Shown here piece after piece: positions 16,705-23,894 of a DNA stretch of 64,000 nucleotides. Below the pieces are notes generated by a model, which saw only the letters and a program-made list of their open reading frames with translations, was not told the DNA's origin and made no database searches. The stretch is from Nitrospirota bacterium (lineage in GTDB: Bacteria; Nitrospirota; Nitrospiria; Nitrospirales; UBA8639): positions 1-64,000 of the forward strand of contig RFGF01000088.1 of NCBI GenBank assembly GCA_003695915.1. The letters run 5' to 3'. The translations under genes and the position numbers were made by a program. Position 1 is the first letter of the stretch, and each line of letters starts with the position of its first letter.

Positions 16705-17976
<1,272 letters not shown>

Positions 17977-18121: not shown

Positions 18122-19273
18122 TCAAAGGCCGGCTTCTCGTCGCAACGTGTTTGCCTTGTCGGTTTTTTCCCACGTAAATTCTGGCTCGTTACGTCCAAAG
18201 TGTCCATAGGCCGCGGTTTTTTGATAAATTGGTCGTCTGAGTTTTAAATGATCAATGATCCCTCGAGGCGTAAGCGGAAAATGCTTGCGGACCAACTTAT
18301 CAAGAATATCTATGGAGACCTTTTCGGTGCCTTTAGGATCAACCAATATAGAGACCGGCTCCGGAACGCCGATGGCATACGCTAGCTGCACTTCGCATTT
18401 GTCGACCAACTTAGCAGCTACAAGGTTTTTGGCGATGTATCGCGCCATGTACGAGGCCGAACGGTCCACTTTGCTCGGATCCTTTCCAGAGAACGCCCCG
18501 CCGCCGTGACTGCCGACACCGCCATAGGTGTCAACAATAATCTTCCGGCCCGTCAGTCCAGTGTCTCCCATGGGGCCTCCAGTGACGAATCGACCGGTGG
18601 GATTGATGTGATATTTGACCGTAACCGGATCGAAAATGCTTTTGGGCATCACCGGCTTGATCACTTTTTCAATCACATCCTGCTCGATCTTTTTCGAGGT
18701 TACATTTTCGCTGTGTTGAGTAGAGACAACAATTGTATCGACGCGCACCGGCTTCCCACGCCGATATTCGATGGTGACCTGAGCTTTGCCATCGGGGCGT
18801 ACCCACGGGAGAATCTGTTTTTTTCTGACTTCCGCCAGCCGCCGTGTTAGGCGATGAGCGAGGACAATAGGCATAGGCATCAATTCAGCCGTTTCGTTGC
18901 TGGCATATCCGAACATGAGGCCCTGATCTCCGGCGCCGCCGGTGTCAACGCCGATCGCGATATCTCCGGATTGCGCATGAATGGAGGTCAAGACCGAACA
19001 GGTGCGATAATCAAACCCCCATCTGGCGTCGGTGTACCCCACTTTGCGAATGGTTTCTCGAATAATCTCTGGTATCTCGACATAGGCTTTCGTGGAAATT
19101 TCTCCTGCGACGAAAGCTAACCCTGTGGTCAGAATGGTTTCGCAGGCCACGCGACAATTGCGATCTTTTGCAATGATCGCGTCGAGAATGCCATCGGATA
19201 TTTGATCGGCGATTTTGTCTGGATGGCCTTCTGTGACAGACTCTGAAGTAAAAAGAAAGTTGGATTGGGTCAT
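18122..19273 (-). CDS. metK: S-adenosylmethionine synthetase
   Basis: Makes S-adenosylmethionine from methionine and ATP. 383 residues, normal for the bacterial family. [20 protein letters not shown] (ATP site), [12 protein letters not shown], the [19 protein letters not shown] loop, [17 protein letters not shown] and [11 protein letters not shown] are all present. ATG at 19273 with AGGAG 8 bases upstream. It is followed by a strong terminator. The product supplies the methyltransferases and the two radical SAM proteins encoded nearby. Confidence 0.98.
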
Positions 19274-19770: not shown

Positions 19771-19800
19771 TTGCAATAGTTAAAGAGCCGGTGTTATGAT
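19771..19800 (+). promoter_or_regulatory. sigma70-type promoter of the UspA/PCP_red operon
   Basis: TTGCAA and TATGAT are spaced by 18 bases. The predicted leader would be about 115 bases long; AAGGGAGG lies just before the first gene's ATG at 19923. Confidence 0.5.
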
Positions 19801-19922
19801 CCTCCCCGCATGAAGCCCGATGTGTGGCTTTTTGTGCAGGGATTGGACCGGTATTTGCGAAGAGACCGATTTTGATCGGATTTTGATCGATTGAAAAGTT
19901 TTCCAAGGGAGGCATCCTATCA

Positions 19923-22025
19923 ATGTATAAGACTATCTACATTCCGGTCGACAATTCCGACCATTCCAATATGGCAGTCGATCTGGGTGTAAAATTGGCG
20001 AAGACATTCGGTTCCAAAATTATCGGCAGCCATGTCTATGCTGCAAAAATGCACGATAAACGATTCAAGCAAATGGAAGCTGGCTTGCCAGAGGAATATC
20101 ATGATGAAAAAGAACTCGACCGCCAGCGGCAAATACATGATTCGCTCATTACTCGGGGATTGCAAATTATTACGGATTCCTACCTCGATTATGTGGATCG
20201 TAAATGTGCAGAGGCCAATATTCCGCTCGAACGACGTTCGTTGGAAGGACGGAATTGGAAGGTCCTGTCTGAAGATATTACCACAAACGGTTATGATTTG
20301 ACGATAATGGGGGCATTGGGGGTTGGAGCGGTCAAAGACTCCGTCATAGGAAGTAATACAGAGCGAGTTGTTCGACGGGTGCGAAATTCGGATATTCTGG
20401 TCATCAAAGACCTCAAGCCTCTTAACGGAGGGAAGATCGTTGTGGCTGTGGATGGCAGCCACTATTCATTTGGCGGGTTAAAAACCGCATTGGCATTGGG
20501 AAAAGCTCTCAATAAACCCGTCGAAGCGATTTCCGCTTTCGATCCATATTTTCATTATGCTGCCTTTCACAGTATTTCCGGGGTCTTGAGCGAAGAGGCT
20601 GGGAAGGTTTTTCGCTTTAAAGAGCAAGAAAAGCTTCATGAAGAAATCATCGACAGCGGATTGGCTAAGATTTATCAATCGCATTTGGATATTTCCCGCG
20701 AAGTGGCTCAAGAAGAAAACATGGATATTAAGACCACCTTATTGGATGGAAAAGCGTTCGAGAAGGTTTTGCAATATGTCAGAAAAGAACAGCCTTGGCT
20801 GCTCATTGTTGGGCGAATCGGAGTGCACAGTGACGATGATATGGATATCGGAAGCAATACCGAGAATCTTCTTCGAGCAGCTCCTTGCAATATTTTGATC
20901 TCCAATCGGAAATACGTTCCTCCTATCGATACTCAAGCGGAATATACCATCGCGTGGACCGAAGAAGCGTTGAAACGCATGGAGAAGGTCCCTGTTTTTG
21001 CGAGAGGTGTTGCCAAAACAGCCATTCACCGCTATGCGATTGAAAAAGGTCATACCATCATTAGTAATTCGGTCGTGGATGCTGCCGTCGGAGATATTTT
21101 GCCGAAAGGCGCAATGGAGGCAATGAAAGCTCTGGGGAGCACTTTGGATGAAGCTGGTATCGACCGCAATCGAATGCAGGCAGACGACGCCGTGGCAAGC
21201 GATCTGATGGGCTCCACTTTGAGCGGGATGATGACGCAAATCGTCGAAGAAAAAGAGCCCAGACAATCCCAGATCAAGCCGAGCGTGCAGTCGTATCTCG
21301 ACCGGATGGCTCAGACCTATTATGTGTGTGGAGGATGCGGATATATTGGGAAAGGCGATTCTCCTGTCAAATGTCCCGTGTGTGGGGCAGAAGGTAGTGA
21401 GTTCCGAGAAGTCGACAAGAGCATTTTTGATGCGGCTGCTCGTGCCGAAGGCGGTGTGGAGACGCACTTGGCGTATGACGATGTTCCGATGCAATGGACA
21501 AAAGATGCCAAAGAAGCGATCAGAGCGGTTCCTGCTGGGTTTCAACGGCGACGAGCTAAGGCTAAAATCGAGAAATCGGCTCGGAAATTGGGGATGACCA
21601 CCATTACGCTGGAGTTTGCCTCCCCCATGATTCGAGAAGCTGTCTCAGAAGAATGTACTTTAGGCCTTGCCAATAAGACCCCTTCAGCTGAGGCAGCCTT
21701 TGAACCGCAAAAAGCGGAAGCTTCCAATCAGGGTCACAGCGAACCTCAGGGTTCGAAGTATATTTGGGAGCCGGAAGCTTTGAAGCGCTTAGAGCGAGCA
21801 CCTGCCGGGTTTATGCGGGATTGCACCCGTGCGTTGATTGTCAAGCACGCAGAAAAGCTCGGCACCAATGTGATCACGTTGGAAGTCGCCAACGAAGGAA
21901 TTGAGCAGGCGAAACAGACAATGGAAGAAGCCATGAAAACTGGAAACGTCAAAGATATTATTGCTCGGTTGACTGGTTCAGGTACGCCTGCTGAGTTTCA
22001 AACCGAGGCTCGCCAACATGGGTAG
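19923..22025 (+). CDS. UspA-UspA-PCP_red-zinc ribbon-PCP_red-PCP_red protein
   Basis: 700 residues, cytoplasmic. Residues 1-165 and 170-330 are two UspA domains, both with a complete ATP-binding signature G-x2-G-x9-G-S (G130/G133/G143-S144 and G297/G300/G310-S311). Residues 343-388, 523-568 and 614-660 are PCP_red-type domains (pattern W-x-EAL-x2-L-x2-P-x-F then an ITLE strand), otherwise known from the C-terminus of light-independent protochlorophyllide reductase. A rubredoxin-type zinc ribbon, CGGC at 469-472 and CPVC at 484-487, sits between the first and second. The stop overlaps the next gene by 8 bases. I know no characterised protein with this order; a sensing or adaptor role for a tetrapyrrole-type radical SAM enzyme is inference. 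Confidence 0.85.
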   Translation: MYKTIYIPVDNSDHSNMAVDLGVKLAKTFGSKIIGSHVYAAKMHDKRFKQMEAGLPEEYHDEKELDRQRQIHDSLITRGLQIITDSYLDYVDRKCAEANIPLERRSLEGRNWKVLSEDITTNGYDLTIMGALGVGAVKDSVIGSNTERVVRRVRNSDILVIKDLKPLNGGKIVVAVDGSHYSFGGLKTALALGKALNKPVEAISAFDPYFHYAAFHSISGVLSEEAGKVFRFKEQEKLHEEIIDSGLAKIYQSHLDISREVAQEENMDIKTTLLDGKAFEKVLQYVRKEQPWLLIVGRIGVHSDDDMDIGSNTENLLRAAPCNILISNRKYVPPIDTQAEYTIAWTEEALKRMEKVPVFARGVAKTAIHRYAIEKGHTIISNSVVDAAVGDILPKGAMEAMKALGSTLDEAGIDRNRMQADDAVASDLMGSTLSGMMTQIVEEKEPRQSQIKPSVQSYLDRMAQTYYVCGGCGYIGKGDSPVKCPVCGAEGSEFREVDKSIFDAAARAEGGVETHLAYDDVPMQWTKDAKEAIRAVPAGFQRRRAKAKIEKSARKLGMTTITLEFASPMIREAVSEECTLGLANKTPSAEAAFEPQKAEASNQGHSEPQGSKYIWEPEALKRLERAPAGFMRDCTRALIVKHAEKLGTNVITLEVANEGIEQAKQTMEEAMKTGNVKDIIARLTGSGTPAEFQTEARQHG

Positions 22026-23388
22026 ATCGCTCCCTGTCCTCAATCCGGAGTACCATGGACTGGTTTCGATTGGGAACTCTCCAGCCCCTAATTCCTCTTC
22101 CGGCGCCCATCCGAACGATGGTCGGACCGTCGATGACTTTAAGCCGTATCTCATCGCGCTCAATCTGACCAAGCGATGTAATCTACGGTGTGCCCATTGT
22201 TATCTGGATGCTACGACTAAGTCGAGTGGCGGGTCAGACGAGCTTTCGACGGAAGACTGTTATCGTGTGATTGATCAGATTGCACAAGTCAACCCCGGCA
22301 CACTGCTCGTCATCACCGGTGGGGAGCCGTTGGTACGACCAGATATTTTAGCTATTGCACGATATGCTGTCGAGCGTGGATGTATGGTTGTGTTCGGGAC
22401 CAACGGCATGATGATTGACGATCGACTGGCCAGCGAATTAGTGCGCATCGGGGTGATGGGGGTCGGCATCAGCATCGATTCGCTGGATCCCCACAAACAT
22501 GATTCGTTTCGAGGTGTCCCTGGTGCATGGGAGCGCGCTGTAGCCGGCATCGAAGCGTGCAAGCGGAATGGGCTGCAGTTTCAGATCCATTTCAGTGCGC
22601 AACCTATGAATTATCAGGAATTACCAGAAGTGGTCGAATGGGCGCACAATTTAGGAGCAAAGGTGCTCAATGTGTTTTTCATGGTCTGTACAGGTCGGGG
22701 AGAAGAGCTGACGGATATTACGCCAAGCCAATATGAGGAAGTCCTGAGCTTTTTAGTCGACTGCCAAGATCGCTATAAAGATATGCTGGTCCGAGCTAGG
22801 TGTGCCCCCCATTTTAAGCGATTGGCCTACGAAAAGGATCCCCAGTCTCCGATCACGAAAGCTCAAGGCTATATGGGGGGCGGTTGTCTGGCGGGAACAA
22901 ATTACGCTCGAGTGACACCCAACGGTGATCTGACTCCCTGTCCGTATATGCCCTTGTCAGCCGGGAATATTCGCATGCAGAATTTTGTCGAGCTCTGGGA
23001 ACATTCGCCGGTCTTTCATTCGTTTCGATATCCGACGCTCAAGGGAAAATGCGGGGATTGCGAATACAGTGAAATTTGTGGAGGCTGTCGAGCGCGTCCG
23101 TATGTCGATCATGGCGATTGGATGGACGAAGATCAATGGTGTTTGTATACCCCCAAGGGTGGCGAAAAAGTAAAGGTGGCGTTCAATACTCCAGAAAGCA
23201 GAACCATTGAATGGGATGCGGCAGCTCAGGCGCGGTTGAGCCGCATTCCTTATTTTCTGCGGGCCATGGTAAAAAAGGGAGTTGAACGGCATGCGGCAGA
23301 GTCTGGCGTATCCATCATCACCGTCGAATTGATGGAGGAATTGCGGAAGAAGCGATTCGGAACAGAAAAACCCGTCTTTAAATTCTAA
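22018..23388 (+). CDS. SPASM radical SAM protein with C-terminal PCP_red domain
   Basis: 456 residues. The radical SAM cluster motif is C54-x3-C58-x2-C61 (RCNLRCAHCYLDA), followed by ITGGEPLVRPD and GISIDSLDPHKHD. A SPASM-type Cys-rich region lies at about 300-380 (GGCLAGTNYARVTPNGD, CPYMPLSAGN, CGDCEYSEICGGCRARPY). This outline matches the NirJ/AhbD group that modifies siroheme-derived tetrapyrroles, but peptide-modifying SPASM enzymes are not excluded. Residues 397-442 form a PCP_red domain, the same type found three times in the upstream protein. It overlaps the upstream gene by 8 bases and shares one base (TAATG) with the downstream gene, so all three are probably made together. Confidence 0.88.
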   Translation: MGRSLPVLNPEYHGLVSIGNSPAPNSSSGAHPNDGRTVDDFKPYLIALNLTKRCNLRCAHCYLDATTKSSGGSDELSTEDCYRVIDQIAQVNPGTLLVITGGEPLVRPDILAIARYAVERGCMVVFGTNGMMIDDRLASELVRIGVMGVGISIDSLDPHKHDSFRGVPGAWERAVAGIEACKRNGLQFQIHFSAQPMNYQELPEVVEWAHNLGAKVLNVFFMVCTGRGEELTDITPSQYEEVLSFLVDCQDRYKDMLVRARCAPHFKRLAYEKDPQSPITKAQGYMGGGCLAGTNYARVTPNGDLTPCPYMPLSAGNIRMQNFVELWEHSPVFHSFRYPTLKGKCGDCEYSEICGGCRARPYVDHGDWMDEDQWCLYTPKGGEKVKVAFNTPESRTIEWDAAAQARLSRIPYFLRAMVKKGVERHAAESGVSIITVELMEELRKKRFGTEKPVFKF

Positions 23389-23894
23389 TGGGCGCCCTTG
23401 ATCACGTTCTTCCCATCTTCGTTCATTGGCTCCACCTGCTTTCAGCAATCATTTGGATCGGAGGATTAGCCTTCCTGGTAATGGCTGTCACGCCGGGTCT
23501 TAAGACCTCGGTTCCCAAAGAATTCATCAAACCTATTACCGAAGCCTTCTACAACCAGTACAAACGTGTCGTCGGAGTGATTCTGGTTGTGATTTTGTTT
23601 ACAGGCGGAATTAATTTGCATTATGTGAGTCGAGCAATGGAGGCGCAGACTGGCATAGGAGTGGCTAGTCATCCCAAATATTTAACAGTGTTTTTCATTA
23701 AGTTGGGGCTCGTGTTGGGAGTATTAACGATTTACCTTTATACCATCATTTTCAAAAACGAGCCCACAGGAGAAGAGAGCGACGAAGAACGTGAGCAAAT
23801 GGTGCTCGAGCCCATTCCTTTTCAACGCGGCGCATTATGGATGGGTGTCTTTATCGTCCTCTGTGCTGCGGCTATGAAGCACATGCATTTTTAG
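23388..23894 (+). CDS. four-helix CopD/HemJ-like membrane protein
   Basis: 168 residues with membrane segments at about 8-30, 61-80, 100-122 and 147-163. The first helix carries HWLHLLSAIIWIGGLAFL, with H13 and H16, and the C-terminus ends in KHMHF with H165 and H167. The H-x2-H...W-x-GGL pattern resembles CopD-family and HemJ-type membrane proteins, which bind heme or copper. Its ATG shares a base with the stop of the radical SAM gene. In that context a heme-linked or protoporphyrinogen-oxidase-like job is attractive but unproven. A soluble acidic loop lies at 123-143. Confidence 0.75.
   Translation: MGALDHVLPIFVHWLHLLSAIIWIGGLAFLVMAVTPGLKTSVPKEFIKPITEAFYNQYKRVVGVILVVILFTGGINLHYVSRAMEAQTGIGVASHPKYLTVFFIKLGLVLGVLTIYLYTIIFKNEPTGEESDEEREQMVLEPIPFQRGALWMGVFIVLCAAAMKHMHF

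Follow-up and report, generated by a model that had tools for sequence, protein, structure and literature searches.

What might a domain known from chlorophyll synthesis, PCP_red, be doing in a short operon together with a radical SAM enzyme and a small membrane protein in a member of the Nitrospirales? The question is raised by positions 19,771 to 23,894 of the window, by which we mean the whole stretch of 64,000 nucleotides analysed here. An earlier note on this DNA had proposed an ATP-gated, stress-linked system modifying tetrapyrrole or heme. The features on which the discussion turns are as follows.

19923..22025, + strand: UspA/PCP_red gene, encoding a Usp-Usp-PCP_red-Zn ribbon-PCP_red-PCP_red protein of 700 aa (ORF and Pfam)
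20310..20354, + strand: ATP-binding motif of Usp domain 1, GALGVGAVKDSVIGS (GxxG-9x-GS, residue 130; motif search)
20811..20855, + strand: ATP-binding motif of Usp domain 2, GRIGVHSDDDMDIGS (GxxG-9x-GS, residue 297; motif search)
20955..21086, + strand: PCP_red domain 1 (54.4 bits, profile search)
21321..21404, + strand: rubredoxin-like Zn ribbon, CxxC...CxxC (score of 25.4 bits, slightly under the cut-off of 26.5)
21495..21617, + strand: PCP_red domain 2 (43 bits, profile search)
21765..21890, + strand: PCP_red domain 3 (31.2 bits, alone just below the cut-off)
22018..23388, + strand: radical SAM/SPASM gene of AhbD/NirJ2 type with a PCP_red tail, 456 aa (ORF, Pfam, NCBIfam, tree)
22177..22200, + strand: radical SAM motif CNLRCAHC (C54, C58, C61; alignment)
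22801..23142, + strand: full AhbD-type SPASM motif C262-X27-C290-X17-C308-X36-C345-X2-C348-X5-C354-X2-C357-X17-C375 (compared with the motif in PMC10452713)
23212..23346, + strand: PCP_red tail of the radical SAM protein (57.8-60.2 bits, profile search)
23388..23894, + strand: gene for a four-helix CopD/HemJ-like membrane protein, 168 aa (ORF, homologue alignment, model)

The operon and its domains

The three genes, their overlaps and their domains are borne out by the ORF coordinates and by Pfam. The first two genes overlap by 8 bases and the second and third meet at TAATG; the 8-base overlap is frequent among relatives and not universal, a gap of up to ~200 nt being found in Nitrospira sensu stricto. 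Gene order is identical in all 67 Nitrospirales loci with three complete genes, which answers the call for a check on co-occurrence, and median identity to the window proteins across these loci is 79.6% for the Usp protein, 78.6% for the radical SAM enzyme and 64.0% for the membrane protein; for comparison, the neighbouring GTPase Der has 61.5% and MetK 85.8%. Of 41 relatives, 37 have the radical SAM gene by a genome search, and scanning genome contigs yielded 80 loci, with few exceptions labelled Nitrospira, Nitrospirales or Nitrospirota/Nitrospirae. The operon is a genuine, conserved gene set, spread across nitrite oxidisers of the Nitrospira type and related bacteria, and it has never been described before. 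The sigma70-type promoter formerly placed at 19771-19800 was rejected as a real feature; it matches at 9 of 12 positions, and the region has eight such sites where shuffled sequence gives 6.0 +/- 2.5, a number that does not rise above chance. Upstream of the operon and divergent from it, on the other strand, lie sahH (16705-17961) and metK (18122-19273), whose roles are SAM recycling and synthesis, a placement also seen in several, not all, Nitrospirales.

Protein 1 has both the Usp domain (PF00582, 105.8 bits over two stretches) and the GxxG-9x-G(S/T) ATP motif by which UspA is recognised, and it is solely from this domain name and motif that the labels "stress-linked" and "ATP-gated" would follow. 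The PCP_red calls pass a Pfam profile search, with 107.3 bits in total over the three stretches of protein 1 against a cut-off of 32.5 (PF08369), as does the tail of protein 2. Thus the two Usp and three PCP_red domains of protein 1 stand, but its zinc ribbon falls just short of the cut-off. PCP_red is the same 45-residue domain that occurs in the dark protochlorophyllide reductase BchB/ChlB, as both the profile and the PDB matches (2xdq, 2kru, 2l09 and 3aek) indicate; the proteins considered here differ in having no nitrogenase-like domain and in carrying the domain as a repeated module of 1 to 5 copies. Its copy number ranges from 0 to 5 in Usp proteins and reaches 4 in a stand-alone protein, which makes it a mobile repeat module in this setting, so that alone it is no proof of a tetrapyrrole. 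A literature search on PCP_red outside chlorophyll synthesis found nothing, and we know of no demonstrated tetrapyrrole-binding role for it outside BchB. These genes show wide reuse of PCP_red as a module, on proteins with no other features of chlorophyll synthesis.

The third protein was previously likened to CopD and HemJ. Its four long helices (predicted structure, pLDDT 80.7) and its histidines H13, H16, H78 and H167, invariant in 47 homologues, agree with this, the conserved N-terminal His being one point of likeness to these small membrane proteins, and a relative in family f7 (L310) passes CopD at 33.0 bits against 32.1, while failing HemJ at 19.9 against 34.2. The window protein itself, however, passes no Pfam family cut-off, scoring 15.9 against 32.1 for CopD (PF05425) and giving no match to HemJ (PF03653, cut-off 34.2). 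A function based on structure was dropped, as the model, in spite of its pLDDT, matched nothing in the PDB with E < 0.001; the protein has no weighty relative there by fold or sequence.

Kinship of the radical SAM enzyme

Protein 2 exceeds the Pfam cut-offs for Radical_SAM (90.9 bits), SPASM (39.7 bits) and PCP_red (57.8 bits). Enzymes of the AhbD type have two auxiliary [4Fe-4S] clusters and the full SPASM motif CX20-33CX17CX36-37CX2CX5CX2CX17-35C (PMC10452713). The eight cysteines of the window enzyme fit this motif, with spacings of X27, X17, X36, X2, X5, X2 and X17, and are invariant with AhbD spacing in 29 of 29 radical SAM enzymes bearing PCP_red; the region can accordingly be read as two predicted auxiliary [4Fe-4S] sites. 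C262 is common to the PCP_red-bearing enzymes, AhbD and NirJ2, and absent from NirJ, PqqE and MftC. The best NCBIfam scores of the window enzyme were with NirJ2 (TIGR04055, 321.9 bits) and AhbD (TIGR04545, 309.9 bits), both under the cut-off of 500, and it reached none of the NCBIfam equivalog cut-offs.

In an IQ-TREE phylogeny of 53 proteins, in which NirJ2 is a single sequence and some branches are long, the 29 PCP_red-bearing enzymes are monophyletic (support 95/92) and sister to NirJ2 (95/88), followed by AhbD-like proteins with TIGR04053 (90/96); NirJ, MftC and PqqE fall outside this group. When the PCP_red-bearing enzymes were forced together with PqqE and MftC the best such tree was 15 log units worse (AU p 0.032). 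The kinship to tetrapyrrole rather than peptide SPASM enzymes that had been proposed is upheld by these results. The earlier note named as grounds for abandoning its proposal a failure of the PCP_red calls, or a grouping with peptide-modifying enzymes in genes that do not co-occur; neither was seen, because PCP_red passes its profiles, the genes co-occur and the enzyme groups with NirJ2 and AhbD.

Both of these relatives also differ from the operon enzyme. NirJ2, a putative radical SAM enzyme of heme d1 or heme biosynthesis in Firmicutes, is its closest branch and best NCBIfam match and shares with it, besides C262, residues Y296, G127, G148 and S155, but it has no PCP_red and its plasmid copy adjoins NirJ1 and an AsnC-type gene. 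The heme synthase AhbD of Methanosarcina barkeri and sulfate reducers, on the next-nearest branch, has the same eight-cysteine spacing, whereas the operon enzyme has in addition a PCP_red tail and a Usp partner, has no hem-operon setting, and shares genomes with separate AhbD-like proteins. The predicted structure of the operon enzyme (pLDDT 59.7, from an alignment of close relatives) is unreliable in SPASM and usable only for the radical SAM barrel.

Genomic coupling to a cytochrome bd-like complex

The OR-N CydA complex of nitrite oxidisers is believed to act together with nitrite oxidoreductase. Our search of 396 Nitrospirota genomes, in which PCP_red-tailed forms of the radical SAM enzyme were told apart from shorter AhbD-like ones, found that the pair of Usp and PCP_red-tailed radical SAM genes recurs across the phylum; a tandem-Usp gene usually adjoins the latter where the sequence sufficed, even where the Usp protein has no PCP_red. 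In distant families the recurrent neighbours of this pair are a cytochrome bd-like subunit I, cytochromes c and a heme subunit of the ethylbenzene-dehydrogenase type (EB_dh), and several of these clusters also hold NxrA/NxrB-like subunits and a chaperone of the nitrate-reductase-delta type. PMC6606698 and PMC3578206 describe a conserved cluster of the bd-like gene, an alternative NxrC and two cytochromes c that Nitrospira shares with Nitrospina and anammox bacteria, with a role given as unknown; PMC10839748 names the bd-like family OR-N CydA and regards it as probably oxidising cytochrome c. It is with this complex that the Usp and radical SAM genes both co-occur and cluster.

A model of the bd-like protein, run over the same 396 genomes, finds it in all 164 Nitrospiria, 155 of which have a match to the PCP_red-bearing enzyme; eight or nine have bd-like genes and no such match, some of them in genomes ~99% complete (G029, G255), and one counted among those without a match, G030, carries a fragment of the gene (L201). 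Outside the class Nitrospiria both are found in 27 genomes, the radical SAM enzyme alone in 4, the bd-like protein alone in 4 and neither in 197 (Fisher 6.5e-27, a descriptive value only, which overstates independence because the genomes are related by descent). The pattern is also found inside families, where genomes with both and with neither number 8 and 5 in f29, 4 and 17 in f34 and 2 and 10 in f31, and in f29 it holds for genomes in which the loci lie far apart (G115, 0.95 Mb and 0.43 Mb). One genome, G286, has two Usp-radical SAM pairs and two bd-like genes. Physical linkage and joint transfer account for some of the co-occurrence. In the host genome the operon is not adjacent to the bd-like genes, and copy numbers in Nitrospirales differ, with one operon and three or more bd-like genes. 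The operon is probably linked to a respiratory complex of the bd-like/NXR type, and this genome-wide link, which the earlier note did not foresee, is the strongest clue to its function.

Further PCP_red proteins appear in some families. In f7 and f10 a gene with four PCP_red domains directly follows the radical SAM gene, and in f7 the membrane protein gene comes next, giving the order Usp, radical SAM, 4xPCP_red, membrane protein; in f21 two or three further PCP_red domains are fused to the radical SAM enzyme (profile). Through these arrangements the stand-alone PCP_red genes of the host genome are connected with the same system. There are three such genes, on other contigs than the window's: one with a Zn ribbon and two PCP_red domains adjoins an Fe-S ATPase of the Mrp/NUBPL type (L009:5886-6638), one has four PCP_red domains alone (L010:9087-10073), and one, again with a Zn ribbon and two PCP_red domains (L011:8438-8953), lies within the bd-like oxidase cluster, which also holds two sulfatase-modifying-factor-like (SUMF) genes and DUF420 genes.

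Two other neighbourhoods may be mentioned. In family f4 (L198, L199, L200) the PCP_red-tailed radical SAM gene stands alone; divergent from it are genes for a cupredoxin-like protein with HNPH...CDQHEYM and for a giant protein resembling multicopper oxidases, as long as ~1600 aa. A conserved protein of 217-250 aa, "c1", for which a family search gave only a sub-threshold PNPOx-like match (24.5 against 28.1 bits), is encoded near the Usp-radical SAM pair in ~10 loci, including L281:7172-7825, L283:2188-2841, L286:5234-5968 and L350:412-1074.

Candidate functions of the operon

A gene set whose enzyme is akin to heme-modifying enzymes, and which travels with the bd-like protein, may well supply this complex with a special heme, by making it or by installing it. 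As a full explanation we tentatively favour, at slightly less than even likelihood, a dedicated heme-modifying or heme-delivery maturation module for the bd-like (OR-N CydA) complex, and it is about equally possible that the radical SAM enzyme carries out heme chemistry, with a substrate and reaction that we can only infer. The radical SAM enzyme would direct SAM radical chemistry at a side chain on the periphery of an iron tetrapyrrole that is bound for the bd-like/NXR-type complex; in the simplest case it would, like AhbD, oxidatively decarboxylate a propionate of heme or Fe-coproporphyrin. The PCP_red repeats could hold or hand over the substrate, or dock the partners to one another. The tandem Usp protein might bind ATP and serve as a scaffold or gate, and the His-rich membrane protein might be a conduit for heme (or copper or another metal) into the membrane complex. 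A bolder form, in which this enzyme makes a heme so far unknown and the complex carries it, with PCP_red domains as iron-tetrapyrrole carriers and Usp as an ATP-dependent gate, is somewhat unlikely.

The maturation module is argued for by the conserved core of Usp and PCP_red-bearing radical SAM enzyme, the position of the latter in the tree, the AhbD motif and the genomic coupling; against it are the eight or nine Nitrospiria lacking a match to the enzyme and the four genomes outside Nitrospiria that have the enzyme and no bd-like match. How the bd-like proteins work in nitrite oxidisers of the Nitrospira type, and what hemes and assembly factors they have, is a standing question in extracts from PMC6606698, PMC3578206 and PMC10839748, and a maturation system of this kind is not named in those or in extracts from PMC12342949. 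Nearly universal, strongly conserved genes that track the complex through the phylum would be its first candidate maturation system, and the operon gives a concrete, testable prediction of heme chemistry.

The client of such a module may not be the bd-like protein itself. It could be an NxrA/NxrB-like molybdenum enzyme or the cytochromes c, the bd-like protein being a passenger of the same respiratory cluster, and genes resembling NxrA and/or NxrB do lie in the cluster at L281, L292, L293, L297 and L350; extracts from PMC6606698 and PMC3578206 tie nitrite oxidation to the bd-like protein, alternative NxrC and cytochromes c. However, at L286, L289-L291 and L305 the stretch seen holds the bd-like protein and/or cytochromes c but no NxrA/B. 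Tying the enzyme strictly to nitrite oxidation by way of the Nxr beta subunit was also rejected, TIGR03478 matches being below cut-off, patchy in metagenome-assembled genomes and not tracking the radical SAM enzyme. We regard this as rather unlikely; a different client inside the same complex is compatible with heme chemistry, and the alternatives partly overlap the reading we favour.

SPASM enzymes are mostly peptide maturases, and the operon enzyme might likewise modify a peptide or protein, for example a bd-like subunit or a cytochrome, with PCP_red and Usp recruiting the protein substrate. Protein modification at the bd-like cluster is plausible because of the two SUMF-like genes there in the host genome, and the fold neighbours of the enzyme's model include SuiB, anSME and SkfB, as far as that model may be used. 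Yet the tree and cysteine pattern lie with AhbD and NirJ2 rather than PqqE and MftC, Pfam found no PqqD/RRE domain in the three operon proteins, and no conserved short precursor appears among the recurrent neighbours, a comparison that covered ORFs of 60 aa and over. We take peptide modification to be distinctly unlikely. Usp proteins are classical stress regulators, and a regulatory or stress module of Usp and PCP_red, tuning respiration or SAM use beside a radical SAM enzyme that makes a minor metabolite unrelated to heme, would suit the ATP motifs kept in both Usp domains and the closeness of metK and sahH in the window and several relatives. But the Usp-radical SAM pair persists in families whose Usp has no PCP_red and at loci with no metK match nearby, and neither the neighbourhoods nor the literature points to a stress regulon, so that we hold such a module to be very improbable.

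A different kind of heme chemistry would be a second, oxygen-independent synthesis of heme b, the enzyme being an AhbD isozyme that converts Fe-coproporphyrin III to heme b when HemQ cannot work. Its close kinship to AhbD and complete AhbD cluster motif fit this, as does the use of HemE-HemY-HemQ by Nitrospirales, in which matches to the AhbD model are mostly the operon enzyme. The score of 309.9 bits is nevertheless far under the AhbD cut-off, and the distribution of the operon tracks the bd-like oxidase. In distant families a separate AhbD-like protein has hemE as its neighbour at most of the loci inspected, and frequently hemH and hemY as well. Many genomes have both enzymes, the PCP_red-bearing one elsewhere; no hem genes were seen beside the latter at most loci examined, the exception being a HemY-like gene (c7) after it in f21 (L303, L305). 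An isozyme of AhbD is therefore improbable.

We rejected the idea that the enzyme stands in for ferrochelatase or AhbD in making heme b, which had been suggested by the lack of any PF00762 ferrochelatase in 25 of 25 genomes of the window's family (search over 41 genomes). HemE and a HemY-like oxidase are present in Nitrospirales and HemQ-type PF06778 in 40 of 41 genomes, so heme b can be made there without need for AhbD, and the same radical SAM enzyme is found in families that have retained ferrochelatase. The enzyme is not a housekeeping enzyme of heme synthesis; since HemQ is present and a separate AhbD occurs in other genomes, it is unlikely to serve the general supply of heme. The heme-modifying system first proposed is to this extent narrowed: its grouping with NirJ2 and AhbD and its full AhbD cysteine motif favour it, but not as a general supply of heme. 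In the hemE region itself, hemH lies between hemE and hemY in other families and is cleanly missing in the window's family (L152-L160 against L162-L169). The clusters of AhbD-like radical SAM gene, hemE, hemH and hemY at L312, L315, L317 and L318 suggest that in some Nitrospirota the coproporphyrin pathway ends in an AhbD-like enzyme instead of HemQ.
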